A stretch of DNA of 36,983 nucleotides from Lentisphaeria bacterium (lineage in GTDB: Bacteria; Verrucomicrobiota; Lentisphaeria; Victivallales; Victivallaceae): contig JAFTJQ010000022.1 in the NCBI GenBank assembly GCA_017456285.1, forward strand, positions 1-36,983, written 5' to 3'. A model generated the notes under the pieces. It was not told where the DNA came from, made no database searches, and saw only the letters and a list, made by a program, of their open reading frames with translations. Numbering within the stretch: the first letter of the stretch is position 1; the number at the start of each line of letters is the position of its first letter. The position numbers were made by a program, and so were the translations under genes. Below are positions 8,398 through 22,964 of this stretch, piece by piece.

Positions 8398-9294
8398 TCA
8401 ATCCCTTTTTATGTTATTAATCATATATAAAAAATCCGACAAATCAGGCGATAATTCAGATAAAACATCCAAATATCTCTCCTGTTTGGGATACAACATT
8501 CTGCATTTGGCGGTAAATTCTCCTGCCGTAACCCCCAACTTCTGCTTGAATACTCTGGCAAAATAATCCGAATTACGCCAACCTGTCATTTGCGATACTC
8601 TGGCACAGGTCAAACGATTCTCTTCAAGCAACTGCAATGCCGCAAGCAAACGAATATTGATAATATACTCTCTGGCCTTGCAATTATATTTATTTTTGAA
8701 CAATCGGCAAAGTTGTTCTCCACAGCACCCTGCATGTCTGGCAATTTCTGCTACGGTAAGATCGCAACGTGCTGAATTAATTTTGATATACCGTGTTGCA
8801 ACATCCAAAGTACTTCTGCTCTGCTGATTAATCTCCGCATTGAATGCCCGTTTAAGCAGTAACTCTATTTCAGCTAACAGCATTTTGCCGTGCAATTTTA
8901 TCAATTCAATCGGAGCATTTACTAAATGCCAACGCTCCATTTGCTCCAGATGCGAACAAACCAAGTCCGCTTCCTCAATATACTCATAGGAGCAAATTGC
9001 CGATTCAGAAAAGCACGAGCAATCCAACAAACTTTTGCCGATTCCCAAAACTAATCGGTGCTTCATGTCTTCGACACTCATGCTCTGATGCTTTCCGCCG
9101 GGAGGAACTATCTTTAACTCTCCGCAGCGGCTATTATTCTGCCGGGGGATGAAAGATAATTCCCAGTGTTTATGAAAATGCAAATTTGCAAGTTCCGAAT
9201 CGTCGCTAAATTCAACTTGAATAATATATTTCGAATTTACCGCTTCATTCAAGATATTTAATATCTGTCTTTGTGCCGACGTCAAAATTGCCAT
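8398..9294 (-). CDS. AraC-family transcriptional regulator
   Basis: This 298-residue regulator has two parts. The N-terminal portion contains a cupin-like HFHKHWELSFIP stretch (about residues 36-48) and KIVPPGGKHQS, typical of the sugar-binding barrel of AraC proteins. The C-terminal portion has two helix-turn-helix motifs: LTVAEIARHAGCCGEQLCRLF, then the TCARVSQMTGWRNSDYFARVF segment. It starts 23 bp after the end of the sialidase-like gene, with GGGAAAG before the ATG, so the two are probably co-transcribed. It most likely controls this minus-strand locus in response to a sugar, but the ligand cannot be read from sequence. Confidence 0.92.
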   Translation of the reverse strand: MAILTSAQRQILNILNEAVNSKYIIQVEFSDDSELANLHFHKHWELSFIPRQNNSRCGELKIVPPGGKHQSMSVEDMKHRLVLGIGKSLLDCSCFSESAICSYEYIEEADLVCSHLEQMERWHLVNAPIELIKLHGKMLLAEIELLLKRAFNAEINQQSRSTLDVATRYIKINSARCDLTVAEIARHAGCCGEQLCRLFKNKYNCKAREYIINIRLLAALQLLEENRLTCARVSQMTGWRNSDYFARVFKQKLGVTAGEFTAKCRMLYPKQERYLDVLSELSPDLSDFLYMINNIKRD

Positions 9295-9317: not shown

Positions 9318-11024
9318 TTATTCAAATTTCCACCCGATGTAACTCAAATCTACTGCACCTCGGAAGCCGCCGCTACCGTCTCCCCAAGCAATAACCAACG
9401 GTGATTTGGTGTCGGTGAGTTTACCGGTAGCAATAAGTTCGCCGTCACGGTAAATATTGTAAGTGCCTGCATTTTTGTCAGCTTGCATTGAAAATTTGTG
9501 GAAGCCTTGAGAATTATCTATTTTAATATCTTTCCAGCCGTGGTTATGCAAGTAACGGACAAAATCACGAGCAATTGCCACTCCGCCGGAATATCTTTTC
9601 TCATCCTCAGCATTTCCAATAACAAAACTGGTATAAATTTGCGGTTCTTTGACATCATGTGCCATTATGCGAACCTCATAATCAACTTTAACTTTAGTCG
9701 CATTATCAGGATTGTTAGTTGACCTTAAAGAACTCCAGCATGAACCGTGACGGGTTGAGCCCTCTCGCATAGATACCATACGCAATACCGGATGCGGTCG
9801 TTCAGGAATCTCAACAATTTCCAAATAAGCCTGATCGTCCTCGCTTTTTTTGCGGTAGCCTGCATTGGTAGCAATACGCAAATCCTGCGGCAGACGTTTA
9901 ACGGCAGGAGAATAAAAAACCGTGTATTCCTTGGCTCTCGGATCATCATCAAGCGACAACAAGACAATTGACGGATCTTGAACAAGTTTGAAACGTGAAA
10001 CTACGATACGATTAAAAAGTGAAGAGTTGCGGCTTGACCCGAAATCACTCTCATCATAGAAAATAGCAATTTCACTCGGTGCAGTTTCAATAATTGAAGC
10101 ATAAGAGCTTGTGGAGCCTTTGTAAATACAAATTTTCTGATAATTTTTTCCGGTTCCGGTAAAGTCAACAAAAAGATACAAATTCGGTCTGCCGGTAACT
10201 ACCGCCAAAGTTCCGTCTGCAAGTTTGATTGCATGCGGTGATGCGCCGAAAGAGACAGATTTTTCTTCTGCTGACCAAGTTTTACCGCCGTCAGTTGAGC
10301 GTTTCTGCTTGGCAGGGCCATTGCCATCAACTCGATAAATTGCCAAAATACTTTTGTCCTTCAACTCAACAATAGTGGTTTCGTCGGGGCCCTCAACAGT
10401 TTTTTTAGCTTCATCATCGGCAATTAAAGAGAGGAATTGCCAAGTTTGACCGTCATCTTTGGATTCAAGCAAAAAATTGTGCAGTTTAGCGGCATTAACT
10501 TTTCTGCCGTAACCAGCTACAATCAATCTGCCATCGCTTAAGCGAATACAATCCCGATGCAGGAAACCGATTGAAGTTACATACGGAAATTTAACCTCGC
10601 ACTTGCGAGTTTTAGGTTTATTGGTCGCTTTATCACGTTCAGTAATTACAACGGTATGAACATCAGAATCCTGACGGCTCGAACAACCGACAGAACATTT
10701 TTCTCCTTTCAAATTCTCATAAGCATTAATACCATTGACGGTGCCGATTCCCTTTTCAGGCTTTTTCCAAGTCACACCATTATCAGTAGAATATTCACTG
10801 CATCCATGCTCGTCAACCGCATGCACCCCCGCAGAGTGGCTTAAAAAAATCGTACCGTCAGAAAAACGATGTGCCCACACAAAATTCAAGTGATATGTCG
10901 CACTCTCGACAGTATTGCTGGAAATCGGAATTAGTTTCCCACCGTTAATAAGTACCTCATCGGCACAAACTCTCCCCAAAGCAATTACTGAAAACGCCAT
11001 GACCAACGAAAATAAATTTCTCAT
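9318..11024 (-). CDS. Secreted sialidase-like BNR-repeat protein
   Basis: This 568-residue protein has an N-terminal signal peptide (MRNLFSLVMAFSVIALGRVCA). It has three Asp-box/BNR motifs of the S-x-D-x-G-x-T-W type at about residues 79-86, 188-195 and 243-250, the mark of a six-bladed sialidase-type propeller. The C-terminal 150 residues look like a beta-sandwich (FHKFSMQADKNAGTYNIYRD), similar to LamG-type domains. I do not see the canonical FRIP/YRIP motif of GH33 sialidases, so activity on sialic acid is unproven; another exo-glycosidase of the sialidase superfamily or a binding protein is possible. GAAAGGAT precedes the ATG. It is probably the first gene of a unit with the AraC and pseudopilin genes. 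Confidence 0.85.
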   Translation of the reverse strand: MRNLFSLVMAFSVIALGRVCADEVLINGGKLIPISSNTVESATYHLNFVWAHRFSDGTIFLSHSAGVHAVDEHGCSEYSTDNGVTWKKPEKGIGTVNGINAYENLKGEKCSVGCSSRQDSDVHTVVITERDKATNKPKTRKCEVKFPYVTSIGFLHRDCIRLSDGRLIVAGYGRKVNAAKLHNFLLESKDDGQTWQFLSLIADDEAKKTVEGPDETTIVELKDKSILAIYRVDGNGPAKQKRSTDGGKTWSAEEKSVSFGASPHAIKLADGTLAVVTGRPNLYLFVDFTGTGKNYQKICIYKGSTSSYASIIETAPSEIAIFYDESDFGSSRNSSLFNRIVVSRFKLVQDPSIVLLSLDDDPRAKEYTVFYSPAVKRLPQDLRIATNAGYRKKSEDDQAYLEIVEIPERPHPVLRMVSMREGSTRHGSCWSSLRSTNNPDNATKVKVDYEVRIMAHDVKEPQIYTSFVIGNAEDEKRYSGGVAIARDFVRYLHNHGWKDIKIDNSQGFHKFSMQADKNAGTYNIYRDGELIATGKLTDTKSPLVIAWGDGSGGFRGAVDLSYIGWKFE

Positions 11025-11108: not shown

Positions 11109-11248
11109 CTATTCCAAACTGTAAAAAACCAACATAATTACTGTACTTTTGCGAATAAACAATTTTCCTTTTTTTATATTGTTATTTGAGATAATATCAT
11201 TAAAATTATCTAAACCGAATTTTTTTGCAATTTTTTTAGAAATATCAT

Positions 11249-11276
11249 TTGCATTTTTTCGCTCAAGCGGTATATT
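11249..11276 (+). promoter_or_regulatory. Promoter of tRNA-Glu
   Basis: TTGCAT (11249-11254) and TATATT (11271-11276) are 16 bp apart and end 18 bp before the tRNA, the expected distance for a stable-RNA promoter. Confidence 0.6.
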
Positions 11277-11294
11277 AAAAAGTAAGCACTAAGC

Positions 11295-15744: not shown

Positions 15745-15875
15745 CCAACCTATCGAGGGGATTTTCCCGGTTAATTTGAATTGACATCAACTGTAACACA
15801 GATTTTCCCGACCCAACATAACTAACATTGAAAAACAGCATATCGCCAAGACGAAATAACACATATAAAAAAGGA

Positions 15876-15920
15876 AATTATACTATGCATTTTCCCTTTA
15901 TTGCACTATATTAATATTAA
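15876..15920 (+). promoter_or_regulatory. Promoter block of the symporter gene (matches 20932-20976)
   Basis: TATATT (15907-15912) is a good -10 box. Exactly 17 bp upstream, where a -35 box belongs, is TATGCA (15884-15889) in the context ATACTATGCA. About four fifths of the bases from AAAT (15878) to TATATTA are shared without gaps with the block before the GH127 gene. The 5' leader would be about 43 nt in each. A missing -35 consensus with a conserved motif in its place suggests activator dependence, possibly on the AraC protein at 20055. Confidence 0.6.
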
Positions 15921-15961
15921 TAATGAATTAAAGCAATAATTTACCGAAGAAAGGAGTTTTT

Positions 15962-17983
15962 ATGAATTTACACTGGATTGATTGGCTGATTTTAGGAACT
16001 ATTTTGCTCTTGCTTATATTATTTACTGTGCATAGCCGACAATATGTACGAAGTGTTGCGGATTTTATCGCCGCCAATAGAGTCGGCAGGAGATTTTTGC
16101 TTTCAATTGCCACCGGTTTCGGCGGTGCAATATCATTGATTGCAATTTGGGAAATGACCTACAGCCGCGGATTTCCTCCTCAATGGTGGACGATTATGAG
16201 CATGCCGGTCGGGTTACTGCTGGCATTGACCGGATTTATTTTTTATCGTTTCCGTCAAACCAGATGTCTGACTATGGCACAATTTTTTGAGATTCGTTAT
16301 TCTCGACGCTTTCGATACTTTTCGGCGATTCTCTGCTGGATTTCAGGGGCATTAAATTATGGTATTTTCCCATTAATTACGGCGAGATTTGTAATTTATT
16401 TTTTCGGTTTACCTGAAAATGCATTTTGCATAGGCGATTTTGAAGTTTCATCATTATCATTAGTAATGTTAATTTATTTAGGGATTGCTCTGTATATTGC
16501 TTGTGCCGGCGGACAAGTAGCGATTATGATTACCGACTTTCTCCAAGGTTTTATGATGCTTGGGATTTTTGTCGTATTGATGGTCTTTTTCCTCTATAAA
16601 TACGGTTGGAACGATTTAATGACAGGATTACATTTTGCTCCGGAGGGGCAATCCATGATTAATCCATTCAAAACGAGTGATGTTGCAGATTTTGACGTTT
16701 GGTACTTCCTGATCGGTATTTTCAATATGATCTACAATCGAGGCAGCTGGCAAGGAAGCTCCGGTTATCAAGCCGCCGCTAAAACTCCTCACGAAATGAA
16801 AATCGGAAATGCAATCAGTTCCTGGAGAATGTTTGTTTCCAATGTTTGCTTTTTGATAATTCCTTTGAGTGCTTATGCGATTTTGCACAACTCTTTGCTC
16901 GAACCGGCATTAAGCGACAAGGTCAATACCGCTGTAGCAAATTTGCCTGAATACCTGCAAACTCAAATGGCAGTACCGATTTTTTTGGCGGAAGTATTGC
17001 CTATTGGCTTGACGGGATTAGTAGCGGTAATCATTCTTGCCTGTGCGATAAGTTGCGATGACACATATCTGCATAGTTGGGGAACTATTCTCGTGCAAGA
17101 TGTGATTTTGCCGATTCGCAACAAACCGATTACCCCCTCAAAGCACATGCTTTTATTGAGGCTTTCAATTGTCGGAGTGGCATTATTCGGATTTACATTC
17201 AGTCTTTTTGTCAATTATCTGCAAGAAAGTTTAGGAGTTAATTTTTTAATTTATATGTATTTTGCAATTACCGGTTCTATCTATTTAGGCGGTGCAGGTG
17301 CGGTTATTATCGGCGGCCTGTATTGGAAAAAAGGAACCTCTTTCGGCGCATGGTGTGCAATGATTGTCGGTACAATTATCTCCTTCGGCGGAGTTGTGAT
17401 TGAACAATGCTGGAATAGAGGCGTCAGCAATTTCCTATTATCCATATTCCCGAATTGGGAGTTTCTGCAAAACAATTTGGAGACTCCGCCATTTAATGGA
17501 CAGTGGGTATTTATGACTGCTATGGCGGCATCTTGTATTCTCTATGTAGTTGCTTCGCTTTTAGGTCCGCGGGAAAACTATGATATGGATAAGCTTTTGC
17601 ATCGCGGCAAATATCATATTGAATCTGATACTGCCCACGGAGACAGCGAAACAAACGAAAAGTCTGCGAAATTCAGTTTCTCTAAATTAATCGGCATTAC
17701 AGACGAATTTACTAAAAAAGACCGCATCCTTTATTGGGCGACTTTTTGGTGGTCTATGGGCTGGTGGATTATCTTTGTAATTGGAACAATTATTTGTTTA
17801 ATTCGAGATATTCCTGACAAGGCTTGGGAAATTTTCTGGTTTATTCAAATCTGGATGATGGTAATTATCGGAGTTGCCTGTACAATTTGGATTGCCAAAG
17901 GCGGAATCAAGGATTTATTAGCAATGTTTAAAGATTTGAAAGATATGCCGAGAGATATGACCGATGATGGCATAGTTAAGTAA
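15962..17983 (+). CDS. Sodium:solute symporter (SSS family)
   Basis: This 673-residue integral membrane transporter of the SSF/SSS type has about 13-14 hydrophobic segments. It begins with a periplasmic-out N-terminus and first helix (IDWLILGTILLLLILFTVH). SVADFIAANRVGRRFLLSIATGFGG is typical of the first repeat of sugar SSS carriers, followed by the conserved small-residue and aromatic helices. A hydrophilic loop near residues 540-590 precedes the last helices. AGAAAGGAG lies 7-8 bp before the ATG. It is the first gene of the plus-strand glycan locus and its likely importer, taking up a mono- or oligosaccharide with sodium. The substrate cannot be read from sequence; rhamnose-containing sugars are inferred from the neighbours. 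Confidence 0.93.
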   Translation: MNLHWIDWLILGTILLLLILFTVHSRQYVRSVADFIAANRVGRRFLLSIATGFGGAISLIAIWEMTYSRGFPPQWWTIMSMPVGLLLALTGFIFYRFRQTRCLTMAQFFEIRYSRRFRYFSAILCWISGALNYGIFPLITARFVIYFFGLPENAFCIGDFEVSSLSLVMLIYLGIALYIACAGGQVAIMITDFLQGFMMLGIFVVLMVFFLYKYGWNDLMTGLHFAPEGQSMINPFKTSDVADFDVWYFLIGIFNMIYNRGSWQGSSGYQAAAKTPHEMKIGNAISSWRMFVSNVCFLIIPLSAYAILHNSLLEPALSDKVNTAVANLPEYLQTQMAVPIFLAEVLPIGLTGLVAVIILACAISCDDTYLHSWGTILVQDVILPIRNKPITPSKHMLLLRLSIVGVALFGFTFSLFVNYLQESLGVNFLIYMYFAITGSIYLGGAGAVIIGGLYWKKGTSFGAWCAMIVGTIISFGGVVIEQCWNRGVSNFLLSIFPNWEFLQNNLETPPFNGQWVFMTAMAASCILYVVASLLGPRENYDMDKLLHRGKYHIESDTAHGDSETNEKSAKFSFSKLIGITDEFTKKDRILYWATFWWSMGWWIIFVIGTIICLIRDIPDKAWEIFWFIQIWMMVIIGVACTIWIAKGGIKDLLAMFKDLKDMPRDMTDDGIVK

Positions 17984-18012
17984 TTTTGATTTTTTCTGAT
18001 AACGGTACTGAT

Positions 18013-20052
18013 ATGTTGAAAGTTAATCAAAAAAACGAAAATTCAAACCCGAAAATTAACGATACTGCCAATGCAGCTCCTATGTCTCTGCACATAGATA
18101 AGCCGATTAGCGACAATATGGTTTGGCAGCATGGCAAAATAAATCGTATCTGCGGGACTGCAATTGCAGGAGAACGGGTTGATGCCCGAATTAATGGCGC
18201 AACCTATTCAACTTTTGCCTCTCCCTATAATGGCAGATTTACCATTTATATCCCTCCGCAAGCACCTGCAAGCGGACTTACTTTACAAATTTCCTGCCGC
18301 CATGAAGAAAAAACTTTTTCTGACATTGCTTTCGGCAATGTCTATTTGATTGCAGGTCAATCAAATATGGAATTTATGTTAAAACTATGCTACCCGTCCA
18401 TAGAAGCTATTGATCAAACAACTTTGCCGCATATAAGTTACTTCAAACCTCAAATAACCCTATTCCCGAGTAAACAGACTGAAATTCAAGGGCATTGGGA
18501 GAAACTTGATAGCGTCAATGCTCTCGAATTTTCCGGATTGGGGGTGTTTTTTGCCTCTCTGCTTTACCTAAAAATTTCAATTCCTATCGGCATTATTGAT
18601 ATTTCTCTCGGAGGAGTAAATTTAGAGTCATGGGTGGATTATGAGCATTTAAGTACAATAACTTTTTATCGTCAGGAATTACAGGAGTATGAACTGAAAA
18701 TTACTCGTGACCAATTACTCTGCTTGCCCAATTTGGCAGATAACGATCAAAAACTTTTTGCCGAACTTGATAAAATGTTTCCCGAAGAGCCGCACGATTC
18801 AGGCTTAACGGAAAAGTTTTACTCAAGGGATTTTGATGATAGCAAATGGGAGACAATGCGACTTCCTGACAGCTGGACTCAAGCCGGACACAATCATGCA
18901 GGGATTTTTTGGTTCAGACGAGAAATAATACTAAAACACGGCGAAGAACTGCACAATTACAAACTCCATTTGGGCGCAATTGATAAATCCGATATAACAT
19001 TTATGAACGGAACGAAAATCGGCGAATCAGGCGACATGAAAAAATTTGACGCCTGGAACAAAAAAAGAGTTTATGATATACCCAAAGGCATCATGCAAGC
19101 AGGTCGTAATATTTTAGCAATCAGAGCCGCATCATTGGTTTCAATTTGCAATGACGGCGGCTTGACCGGGCCCGCAGAAGAGATGTTTCTTATTTCTGAT
19201 GACGGTTCTATAAAATATGAACTTACCGGAATTTGGAAGTATCAGGAGACCTTTGATGCAGGAATTGAAGGTATGACCTGCATGCGGAAATTCGGCAGCG
19301 GCGGACCGAATTCATTTCACATGTTCTTTGACAATATGATTTATCCATTAGCGGCAACAGAAATTTGCGGAGTAATTTTTTATCAGGGCGAGGCTAATGC
19401 AATTTGCATGAGTCATACCTATTATGAATTACTGAAAAATATGATTGCTTCGTGGCGGCAGAACTTCCGAAATGCCGAATTACCATTTTATATTATTCAA
19501 TTGCCGAACTACCATAACCCGCATGTTTTTGCTCCACACAGTCAATGGGCGTTGATTCGTGAAGCTCAAAAAGAAGCGGCATTGCAAATGCAAGTTGATT
19601 ATATTGTTACAATCGGATTAGGTGAAGTTGATGAGTTGCATCCACGCAATAAATTGGCTGTTGCCAAAATAATTACCGACAAAGAAGGCAAAAAATTTCA
19701 TAATCAAAAAACTCCCGCAACTCCTGAATTATTGTCGGTGGAAAAAAGCAATGAAAAATTGATTTTGAAATTTTCTGAAGCTCTCCGACAGCAAGCTGTA
19801 TACGGTTTTGCTGTGAGCGGTACAGACTTGGAAGTTTTTGCTGCTCAAGCGGAATTTATAGATGATTACACTATTGCAATTTGGTCTGATGAAGTACCTG
19901 AAGCATACGCTGTGTGGTATGCATGGGCAGATAATCCCGAATTTGCAAATTTAGTAAGCAGTGAAAATATTGCCGTATCTCCATTCAGAGTTACACTTGA
20001 CGGCAAAAAAGTTATTGGTAAAAATTTAGTTCATTCATATAGTGAAAGGTAA
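18013..20052 (+). CDS. Sialate O-acetylesterase-like SGNH esterase
   Basis: From ATG 18013 this is a 679-residue protein. The SGNH block AGQSNMEF carries the nucleophile S117, FYQGEANA follows in the second half, and DELHPRNKLAVA near residue 540 supplies the catalytic Asp/His. A jelly-roll domain resembling the GH2 sugar-binding domain (SKWETMRLPDSW to NILAIRAAS, about 265-370) is inserted, as in bacterial sialate O-acetylesterases. No signal peptide is visible, so it may deacetylate imported sugars in the cytoplasm. In this rhamnose context the real substrate could be acetylated rhamnogalacturonan-type oligosaccharides and not sialate. The start is uncertain: TTG 17986, ATG 18013 and ATG 18082 are all possible and none has a good Shine-Dalgarno. 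It follows the symporter gene within 30 bp. Confidence 0.87.
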   Translation: MLKVNQKNENSNPKINDTANAAPMSLHIDKPISDNMVWQHGKINRICGTAIAGERVDARINGATYSTFASPYNGRFTIYIPPQAPASGLTLQISCRHEEKTFSDIAFGNVYLIAGQSNMEFMLKLCYPSIEAIDQTTLPHISYFKPQITLFPSKQTEIQGHWEKLDSVNALEFSGLGVFFASLLYLKISIPIGIIDISLGGVNLESWVDYEHLSTITFYRQELQEYELKITRDQLLCLPNLADNDQKLFAELDKMFPEEPHDSGLTEKFYSRDFDDSKWETMRLPDSWTQAGHNHAGIFWFRREIILKHGEELHNYKLHLGAIDKSDITFMNGTKIGESGDMKKFDAWNKKRVYDIPKGIMQAGRNILAIRAASLVSICNDGGLTGPAEEMFLISDDGSIKYELTGIWKYQETFDAGIEGMTCMRKFGSGGPNSFHMFFDNMIYPLAATEICGVIFYQGEANAICMSHTYYELLKNMIASWRQNFRNAELPFYIIQLPNYHNPHVFAPHSQWALIREAQKEAALQMQVDYIVTIGLGEVDELHPRNKLAVAKIITDKEGKKFHNQKTPATPELLSVEKSNEKLILKFSEALRQQAVYGFAVSGTDLEVFAAQAEFIDDYTIAIWSDEVPEAYAVWYAWADNPEFANLVSSENIAVSPFRVTLDGKKVIGKNLVHSYSER

Positions 20053-20054
20053 TT

Positions 20055-20939
20055 ATGAGTACTTCAATTAGAGAATTTCATATTAAAGATTATCAGCAAA
20101 CTAATTTGCCTTTGGCAGTTTGGAAATCCATTCCCAATCAAAGACATGAGCCGCCGCATAGGCATGATTGTTATGAAATTATGTTTATATTAAACGGAGC
20201 AGGTGTTTGTATCATCAATGATCAACATTATTCCATGAATAAGGGAAGTGTATTTTTCATCCGTCCTGAAGACATTCACAGTTTTCAGGTTGATTTAGGA
20301 ACAAATTTTTTCAATGTGATTTTTACGGAAAATATGTTCACGGGAAATAATCGTCAACTCTATCTGAAAATGCTGTCACTTTTTGAGGACAGCCGAAAAA
20401 TCACTTTGCCGATGATGTCAGAACGTATATTGGAAAATACTTTGCAAGATATTGTAACCGAATTATCCGGCTATCAACTTTATTCATCAATTGCAAGTCA
20501 TTCGCTTTTTATCTATTTTATTGTACTGCTTTTGAGAAATAATTTATCGAGCAGCAACAATACGGAGTACATCGAGGATGACTTGAAGTTGAGCAGAGTT
20601 TTTAATTACATTGCTAAGCATATAGATGAAAAAATATCTTTGACACAACTTTCAAAAATTGTCGGATATACACCGAAATATTTCAGTAAATTTTTTAAGA
20701 AAATAACCGGCATCTCAGTTTCCGCTTATATTATCAGGTGTCGTATTGAACTTGCTCAAAGTGAATTAAAGTATTCTAACAAAACTTTATCGGAAATCGC
20801 TTACGAACACGGATTTTGTGATGCGACGCATTTTTCAAAAACCTTTACTAAAATCATTGGGGTATCGCCGAGTATGTACAGACAAAATGTCAGAAGAACT
20901 TTCGGTGAGACGAAACAATACTTAAAAAAAGAGAAATAA
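20055..20939 (+). CDS. AraC-family transcriptional regulator with cupin domain
   Basis: This 294-residue protein has an N-terminal cupin sensor domain (HEPPHRHDCYEIMFILNGAG, then MNKGSVFFIRPEDIHSF) at about residues 30-80. Its C-terminal pair of helix-turn-helix motifs is ISLTQLSKIVGYTPKYFSKFF, then LSEIAYEHGFCDATHFSKTF, with the family ending GVSPSMYRQN. The start codon lies 3 bp after the previous stop, with GAAAGG just before it, so it is translated with the symporter and esterase genes. It is the natural candidate to bind the shared motif upstream of 15962 and 21022 in response to a sugar such as rhamnose. The ligand is not shown by the sequence. Confidence 0.93.
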   Translation: MSTSIREFHIKDYQQTNLPLAVWKSIPNQRHEPPHRHDCYEIMFILNGAGVCIINDQHYSMNKGSVFFIRPEDIHSFQVDLGTNFFNVIFTENMFTGNNRQLYLKMLSLFEDSRKITLPMMSERILENTLQDIVTELSGYQLYSSIASHSLFIYFIVLLLRNNLSSSNNTEYIEDDLKLSRVFNYIAKHIDEKISLTQLSKIVGYTPKYFSKFFKKITGISVSAYIIRCRIELAQSELKYSNKTLSEIAYEHGFCDATHFSKTFTKIIGVSPSMYRQNVRRTFGETKQYLKKEK

Positions 20940-20976
20940 TACTATGCAATATCTTTTTTCTACGGTATATTATTTA
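20932..20976 (+). promoter_or_regulatory. Promoter block of the GH127 gene (matches 15876-15920)
   Basis: TATGCA (20943-20948) lies exactly 17 bp before TATATT (20966-20971), in the same ATACTATGCA context as before the symporter gene. It begins inside the stop region of the AraC gene and gives a leader of about 44 nt to ATG 21022. Confidence 0.6.
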
Positions 20977-21011
20977 ATATGAATATAATATGGATTTAAT
21001 TAATATTTTAT

Positions 21012-21015
21012 GGAG
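21012..21015 (+). promoter_or_regulatory. Shine-Dalgarno GGAG deciding the GH127 start
   Basis: GGAG lies 6 bp before ATG 21022. The earlier in-frame ATG at 21010 would overlap this site and has no ribosome-binding site of its own. Confidence 0.7.
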
Positions 21016-21021
21016 TATAAC

Positions 21022-22734
21022 ATGCAATTAAAATATAATTTTTTACCTGCAGGGGCAGTTAAATTAAAAGGAATTTTGGGCGATAAACTCAATTTGAGTA
21101 TTGCTAATCGCTTAAAGAAAATAGATTATGACAATTTAGTTGCACCATTCAAATACAGAAGCGAAAACGATAATCGCTGGAGAGGTGAGTTCTGGGGCAA
21201 GGTTGTGCGTTCAGCAATTAACTCATATTACTCTACCAAAGATGAAGAATTATTGGCAATTATCAAGAAAACCGTGCAGGATATTATATCATGCCAAAGT
21301 CCAGACGGTTGTATAAGTTCATACCCTGACGAATTACAAGCAAATGGCTGGGATATTTGGGGCAGAAAATATGTACTGCTGGGATTACTGCGTTACTCTG
21401 ACGTACTCGAAAAATCCGCGCAAGTAAAAAATTGCTGCATAAAAATGCTGGAACACATTATGACCCAAATGGGGCCTAATGCGAAAAATATTGCTGATTC
21501 ATGCAATAATTTCAATTGGGGTCTGCCGCCTGCTTCTATTTTGGGAGCAGTTGTCGGGGTATGGAGGATTTCTGGAGATGATAAATTTTTAGATTACGCT
21601 AAATGGATAATTGACAGCGGTTGCTGTTCCAGACATGATATTTTTCATGCGGTTGATATTGGTTTGGAACTTCGCGATATTGCCGGTGCTAAAGCCTATG
21701 AAATGATGAGTTGTTTTCAGGGAATGGCTGAATTGTCTATGGAAAAAGAAAATCCCTCTTACAATGACACCGTTTTGAAATTCTACAATAAAGTCCGCAG
21801 TGAAGAACTCTTTATCACCGGGGCTGCAGGTACCGGAAGCAGTGGTGAATTTTGGGGAGGCGGTGTGGTAAATCAGACCGGTGACGGCGGCCCTTTGGGA
21901 AGATTAGGAGAAACCTGCGTTACTGTAACTTGGATTCACTATTGCGATAGAATTTTACGTCTGTTGGGCGAAGAATCTGCTATTGATGAATTGGAAAAAG
22001 TTTTTTATAACGCCCTTACCGGAGCAATGGTCCCTGATGGCTCATGGTGGATTCATGACAATCCGACTCCTTTAACCGGAAATGGGTCAAAAATTCCGGC
22101 AGCCGACCAAATGGAGGCTGTTGCCGGTACTCCTTACGGACATGATTGCTGTGTAGCTCAAGGCCCTGAGGGCTTGGCTTTTGCACCATTATTGGCGGCA
22201 TTGGAGTTTGACGGAGGAATTGCATTTAATTTTTATGAAGACATGGCAGTTGAATATCATGCACCGAACGGAGAAATGATTAACTTTGATATTACCGGAA
22301 ATTATCCGCTGGGAAATGATGTCAATTTGAAAATATCTTGCTCAAAAAGCAATAATTTTGCCATAAAATTACATATTCCTGAATGGTGGAATGAAAATTG
22401 TAAATTAAGTTTGCCTGATGGTTCTATAGTTCAGAATGTTATCCCCGGCAAATACTATTTATTGCAACGCACCTGGAATAATGGGGATATTATTAGATTC
22501 CACTTTGATTATGCGATTACCCGCTTTACCTCAAAAGATGATGCGTATGTTGCTTACAAGCGTGGCGGATTAGTTTTGGCTGCAGATTCACGCTGCGATG
22601 GTAAAAATATCTCTGATATTAAAGATAACTTTTTGGTAACTTGTCAAGTAGATGGCAGAATATTATGTGATTATATTTCCGCCGGAAATCTTTTTACAAA
22701 AGAGAATACTTTACAGGTTTGGTTTAGAAAATAG
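21022..22734 (+). CDS. GH127-type beta-L-arabinofuranosidase-like glycosidase
   Basis: This 570-residue protein of the DUF1680/GH127 group begins with the conserved LVAPFKYRSE and WRGEFWGK blocks and WDIWGRKYVLLGLL. The cysteine/zinc catalytic set known from Bifidobacterium HypBA1 is complete: E297 and C299 in GETC, and the C376-C377 pair in HDCCVAQG. The spacing from C299 to C376 (77) equals that recalled for C340 to C417 in HypBA1. E276 in SSGEFWGG is the likely acid/base. Retaining hydrolysis with a cysteine nucleophile is expected. Arabinofuranose is the founding substrate, but related families act on other sugars of plant cell walls, so specificity is open. No signal peptide is seen, so it is probably cytoplasmic. 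It has its own promoter, matching that of the symporter. Confidence 0.88.
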   Translation: MQLKYNFLPAGAVKLKGILGDKLNLSIANRLKKIDYDNLVAPFKYRSENDNRWRGEFWGKVVRSAINSYYSTKDEELLAIIKKTVQDIISCQSPDGCISSYPDELQANGWDIWGRKYVLLGLLRYSDVLEKSAQVKNCCIKMLEHIMTQMGPNAKNIADSCNNFNWGLPPASILGAVVGVWRISGDDKFLDYAKWIIDSGCCSRHDIFHAVDIGLELRDIAGAKAYEMMSCFQGMAELSMEKENPSYNDTVLKFYNKVRSEELFITGAAGTGSSGEFWGGGVVNQTGDGGPLGRLGETCVTVTWIHYCDRILRLLGEESAIDELEKVFYNALTGAMVPDGSWWIHDNPTPLTGNGSKIPAADQMEAVAGTPYGHDCCVAQGPEGLAFAPLLAALEFDGGIAFNFYEDMAVEYHAPNGEMINFDITGNYPLGNDVNLKISCSKSNNFAIKLHIPEWWNENCKLSLPDGSIVQNVIPGKYYLLQRTWNNGDIIRFHFDYAITRFTSKDDAYVAYKRGGLVLAADSRCDGKNISDIKDNFLVTCQVDGRILCDYISAGNLFTKENTLQVWFRK

Positions 22735-22964
22735 AATGAAGAAATATTCAGGAAAATATTTCTTAATTAACAATAATTTTACAATGAAAGGAAAAATTAA
22801 TATTTTAGATAGGACTGACCGAGTTAAGATAAAAAATTAAATTTGTTATATTAGCAATAGTCAGTTAGCCCGTAACAATTATCAAGAATGAAAGGTAAAA
22901 AACAAACGTGAATTTTTTTAACCCCGAAAACAAAAAATTTATTAACAGTAAAAAGGAGATTATT

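Follow-up and report, generated by a model that had tools for sequence, protein, structure and literature searches.

A candidate paired operator shared by two promoters beside an AraC/RhaS-like regulator gene in a Lentisphaeria bacterium

For the Escherichia coli araBAD operon, AraC acts at araI1-araI2, the half-sites of which form a direct repeat spaced by approximately 21 bp upstream of a poor -35 box. Activators of the RhaS type, such as that of rhaBAD, also use a direct repeat adjoining the -35 box. In Pseudomonas aeruginosa, the AraC-family regulator SphR has few genomic sites; each is a pair of directly repeated 15-bp elements separated by 6-8 bp, and they are located at its target promoters (PMC3900636). 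The principle is already well known, and the locus described here is an ordinary but well-defined regulatory unit.

The locus was found in a 36,983-nucleotide stretch of DNA from a Lentisphaeria bacterium (the window). It resembles araBAD in its direct repeat of about 21 bp, its poor -35 boxes and the position of the regulator gene beside the targets. However, araI2 overlaps the -35 box by a few bases, whereas here the 10-bp core abuts it; in addition, the half-site sequence is unrelated, and no araO2-like site is demonstrated here. The direct repeat adjoining the -35 box is shared with rhaBAD and RhaS activators, and the regulator shows its best full-length resemblance to RhaS (109 bits). In contrast to the present locus, rhaBAD has half-sites with a longer centre spacing in textbook descriptions; the target here is a GH127 gene instead of rhamnose catabolism, and the score lies under the RhaS equivalog cut-off of 288 bits. 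With SphR, the locus has in common a similar period (21-23 bp in SphR) and very few genomic sites, placed at target promoters, whereas SphR was proven by experiment and differs in sequence, ligand and organism (PMC3900636). A literature search for the lineage, as assumed in the search, found no promoter work and no mapped AraC regulon. The analysis thus offers a predicted operator, a promoter structure and a two-target regulon for an AraC-family regulator in this lineage.

Two transcription units and the AraC/RhaS-like regulator

Promoter A precedes an operon of three genes on the forward strand, with 2 bp between each. They encode a protein of the sodium:solute symporter family (15962-17983; Pfam PF00474), a SASA-type carbohydrate esterase (17986-20052; PF03629) and the AraC/RhaS-like regulator (20055-20939; PF12833, PF02311). 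Promoter B is followed on the same strand by a GH127 gene (beta-L-arabinofuranosidase-like; 21022-22734; PF07944, PF20736), for which the start at 21022 was preferred over that at 21010 because of the GGAG at 21012-21015. The distance from the end of the -10 box to the ATG is 50 bp at promoter A and, with ATG 21022, 51 bp at promoter B. The equal leaders of 43-44 nt described in the initial annotation are obtained if the second reading frame begins at this ATG and transcription starts 7 nt past the -10 box.

The regulator contains a double helix-turn-helix (PF12833, 1.2e-20, residues 199-277, together with PF00165) and an N-terminal sensor domain of the cupin/AraC_binding type (PF02311, 9.9e-13; PF07883, 3.4e-7), both characteristic of the AraC/XylS family. 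Over its full length it resembles RhaS, RhaR and AraC, with RhaS the best (NCBIfam). For the RhaS equivalog NF010028, the cut-off is 288 bits and the regulator scores 109.3; the protein is probably RhaS-like in its working and should not be filed as RhaS. Homologues of the regulator align over residues ~5-281, so operator B (see below) falls in codons at the very end of the araC-like gene (ETKQYLKKEK) that are not conserved.

In the relatives G063, G064 and G088, a single contig carries both the best regulator homologue and a GH127 homologue, separated by 0.2-4.4 kb. A search of 137 genomes of the order turned up no close orthologue of the regulator (best identity 37-38%), and a wider genome collection yielded only distant proteins. 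Thus, no phylogenetic footprint was possible. Locus L004 of G025 was rejected as an orthologous locus because its context is unrelated. The genome itself encodes at least 27 AraC-family proteins. A second AraC-family gene of the window (8398-9294, reverse strand) is divergent and adjoins the gene for a BNR-repeat protein (9318-11024).

The conserved block, the putative paired operator and the -35 boxes

The conserved block shared by the two promoters is GACGAAAYAAYACWTAWAAAAARRRAAATWATACTATGCA, which spans 15850-15889 at promoter A and 20909-20948 at promoter B and is identical at 33/40 positions. It lies 26 bp upstream of the block proposed in the initial annotation, in which 15876-15920 and 20932-20976 were aligned at roughly four-fifths identity. 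As written, that alignment is 3 bp out of register and gives 18/45 identities, and even with the register corrected the identity is only 30/45. Upstream of 15849, the likeness of A and B is at chance level; beyond TATGCA, nothing but TATATT and the GGAG of the ribosome-binding site is noticeably alike. It had also been stated that intergenic DNA elsewhere in the window does not match. This holds only in part: an exception is 11241-11284, which matches at 27/44 because the ordinary promoter pattern of the genome, ATCATTTGCA-N17-TATATT, is present there.

Compared with 852 upstream regions of the genome, the next-best match to either block reached at most 27/40. An identity of 33/40 at any register was seen in 5 of 6,000 random upstream-region pairs, and the A/B pair ranked first among 335 promoter pairs near araC-family genes. 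When the regions were anchored on the -10 box, 33/40 was reached by 10 of 164,451 pairs, a set that excludes the A/B pair because region B ends at the araC stop codon; most of those inspected among the 10 were promoters of paralogous prepilin-like genes. No similar upstream block was present at the 51%-identical symporter gene on C78.

The best internal repeat of each block is at 21 bp, in an identical register in A and B. At operator A, the distal half-site GAAATAACAC (15853-15862) is followed 21 bp downstream by the proximal half-site GAAATTATAC (15874-15883). At operator B, the distal half-site GAAACAATAC (20912-20921) lies inside the araC-like gene, at its 3' end, and the proximal half-site GAAATAATAC (20933-20942) spans the stop codon of this gene. 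All four are on the forward strand and form direct repeats with 21-bp spacing and the consensus GAAAYWAYAC, which possibly extends 3'. An AraC-type operator has its two half-sites pointing the same way, offset by some two turns of the helix, upstream of the promoter; the repeats at A and B agree with this arrangement. The proximal half-sites end at 15883 and 20942 and the -35 boxes start at 15884 and 20943, which fits the adjoining or overlapping placement of the activator site in class II activation.

When 2.39 Mb of the genome was searched with GAAAYWAYAC-N11-GAAAYWAYAC, two sites were found at 0 mismatches, both at this locus, and none at one or two; since the consensus was drawn from these same two operators, the 0-mismatch counts are partly circular and demonstrate isolation, which is not proof of function. 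The genomic background of paired operators begins at three mismatches. Half-site pairs at spacings of 12-33 other than 21 were absent from the genome at 0-1 mismatches, and the paired operator had no occurrence in the 77 other genomes of the family (78 including this one). Single half-sites numbered 41 in the genome; 0.6 would be expected per window length, and the window contains five, four of them at the two promoters. In simulated pairs with 33/40 identity, an equal repeat at 21 bp arose in 0.2-0.5% of cases and one at any spacing of 12-28 in 1.7%. Because blocks A and B are alike, the internal repeat counts once as evidence, not twice, and it is only moderately significant. Promoters neighboring other araC genes carried 21-bp repeats in 8.6% versus 6.2%, with no clear excess, which speaks against the repeat as a general trait of such promoters. 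A degenerate operator scan of eight relatives gave the control level among the matches listed.

To judge the -35 boxes, the vegetative promoter was derived from upstream regions in 2.39 Mb of the genome. A two-box matrix built on 518 regions (~500 promoters) gave the consensus NTTGMA-N17-TATATTA. Matrix scores above 7 were obtained for 518 real and 120 shuffled regions, and the spacer of the 518 predicted promoters was 17 bp in 374 and 18 bp in 130. The usual -10 box of the genome is TATATT, and a TTG lies ahead of it, at -22 to -20 counted from the first base of the box. Both promoters have a perfect -10 box (TATATTA), with TATATT at 15907-15912 in A and at 20966-20971 in B. The -35 box is TATGCA in each case (15884-15889 and 20943-20948, forward strand) and is weak when compared with NTTGMA: a single substitution separates it from TTTGCA, at the first T of the near-invariant TTG core. 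Its score, from a matrix trained with the TTG core, places it in the weakest 1% of -35 boxes across the 518 predicted promoters that have a perfect -10 box. A -35 box below the organism's norm, with the TTG core broken, is thus found at both A and B, as in class II promoters.

It had been proposed that a conserved motif replaces the -35 box. This view was not sustained, as TATGCA occupies the normal -35 position of the genome, 17 bp from the -10 box; judging from sequence, it appears to be a weakened or degraded -35 box in the standard place and no replacement. For the same reason, a loose genome scan returned many ATAATTTGCA-N17-TATATT sites, the position of TATGCA being the ordinary -35 pattern. 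The consensus NTTGMA-N17-TATATTA can serve as a usable yardstick for other promoters described as missing a -35 box.

The initial annotation had further pointed to ATACTATGCA-N17-TATATT at both promoters and suggested a genome-wide scan for it. The motif is indeed present at 15880-15912 and 20939-20971, against 0 expected from shuffled sequences, and the scan detected exactly 2 sites in 2,422,534 bases. Binding of the AraC protein to ATACTATGCA as such is nonetheless improbable: TATGCA occupies the place where a -35 box is normally found, and in five more genomic copies of ATACTATGCA no TATATT follows at 17 bp. The motif is best read as the end of a putative half-site (its last four bases, ATAC) fused to a degraded -35 box. 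As the site of binding we predict GAAAYWAYAC-N11-GAAAYWAYAC, most of which lies upstream of the block originally described.

Proposed regulation and alternative explanations

From the motif, its spacing and uniqueness, the weak -35 boxes and the gene order, we infer that the AraC/RhaS-like protein (20055-20939) probably activates, in the class II manner, both its own operon (symporter-esterase-araC) and GH127, with a probability of about 0.72. The predicted regulon is defined from two sites in one genome. That this protein controls uptake and GH127 together had already been suggested, and the finding of the paired 21-bp operator at both promoters only, with none elsewhere in the genome or in the 77 other family genomes, supports it. 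The regulator would sense a ligand, probably a saccharide, and bind both half-sites as a dimer; at 21 bp (two helical turns) apart, these would be presented on one face of the DNA. The vegetative sigma factor would normally read the TTG core, which TATGCA breaks at both promoters, and contact between the bound regulator and sigma region 4 could make up for the missing -35 contact. As a result, the symporter-esterase-araC operon would be switched on with positive autoregulation, and GH127 jointly with it.

A real shared operator could also be bound by another of the ~27 AraC-family regulators (e.g., that at 8398-9294) or by some other factor, possibly a repressor. With at least 27 such proteins encoded in the genome, the binding protein cannot be assigned from sequence alone, and a proximal site adjoining the -35 box would fit a repressor too. 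However, a weak -35 box with a perfect -10 box fits an activator instead, the operator is confined to the two promoters flanking the 20055-20939 gene, and the homologue of this regulator stays near GH127 in relatives; a different binder or mode of action is considered rather unlikely. A much smaller probability is given to ordinary vegetative promoters, in which TATGCA-N17-TATATT would be the -35/-10 pair of the lineage and the upstream likeness an A-rich coincidence. The 33/40 identity concerns DNA upstream of the -35 box, where vegetative promoters differ and the next-best region reaches 27/40, and the TTG core is broken at A and B alike, although the standard -35 spacing, the single-base difference from TTTGCA, and the 17-bp spacing and TATATT as genome norms would all suit this explanation.

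Slightly less probable still is that a local duplication of the araC 3' end/GH127 promoter left the likeness behind as a relic with no function. Such an origin would agree with the overlap of block B with the end of the araC-like coding sequence and with the location of block A on the same strand, 5 kb upstream, but the likeness ends at functional borders (upstream of 15849 and past the -35 box, except for the -10 box and GGAG), and half-sites, -35 and -10 boxes in register are not expected of a passive remnant. Class II activation by the 20055-20939 protein is the reading retained here. A more speculative reading concerns a single perfect half-site, GAAATAATACTA (also given as GAAATAATAC), at 18922-18931 on the forward strand, within the esterase gene and ~2-3 kb from both operators. 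This half-site could act as a remote third site of a looping switch, in which the operon between the promoters would be looped when uninduced and operator B would double as the regulator's coding tail; of all the possibilities considered, this was judged the most doubtful.

Further promoters in the window and the genome

Behind the GH127 gene, the sequence TTAAGA-N17-TATATT at 22824-22852, in which TG precedes the -10 box, may be a promoter of its own ahead of a DUF1559 gene. It carries no operator, so the downstream LamG, GH123-like, rhamnosidase, GH94 and GFO/IDH/MocA genes may fall outside the two-site regulon.

Promoters almost identical to one another, in which AAACTATTGAC or GGGTATTGAC takes the -35 position, were observed at L114:11135, L157:7190 and 8223 (-), L163:6025, L080:6569 (-), L035:16065 (-) and L086:18251. 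All five of the genes scanned behind these promoters (5/5) encode a DUF1559 domain, an N-methylation (prepilin-like) domain or both; on L114 the copies run on into TTGTGCTATAATATT. These promoters appear to form a class of their own. The regions upstream of 7612, 10731 and 11907 on L025 have AACTGTCTTCGATGACAGATA-like DNA in common, a further candidate shared operator. The regions upstream of L069:5543 and L109:875 (-), on two contigs, are identical at 40/40 positions, which suggests a duplicated segment or redundant contigs.
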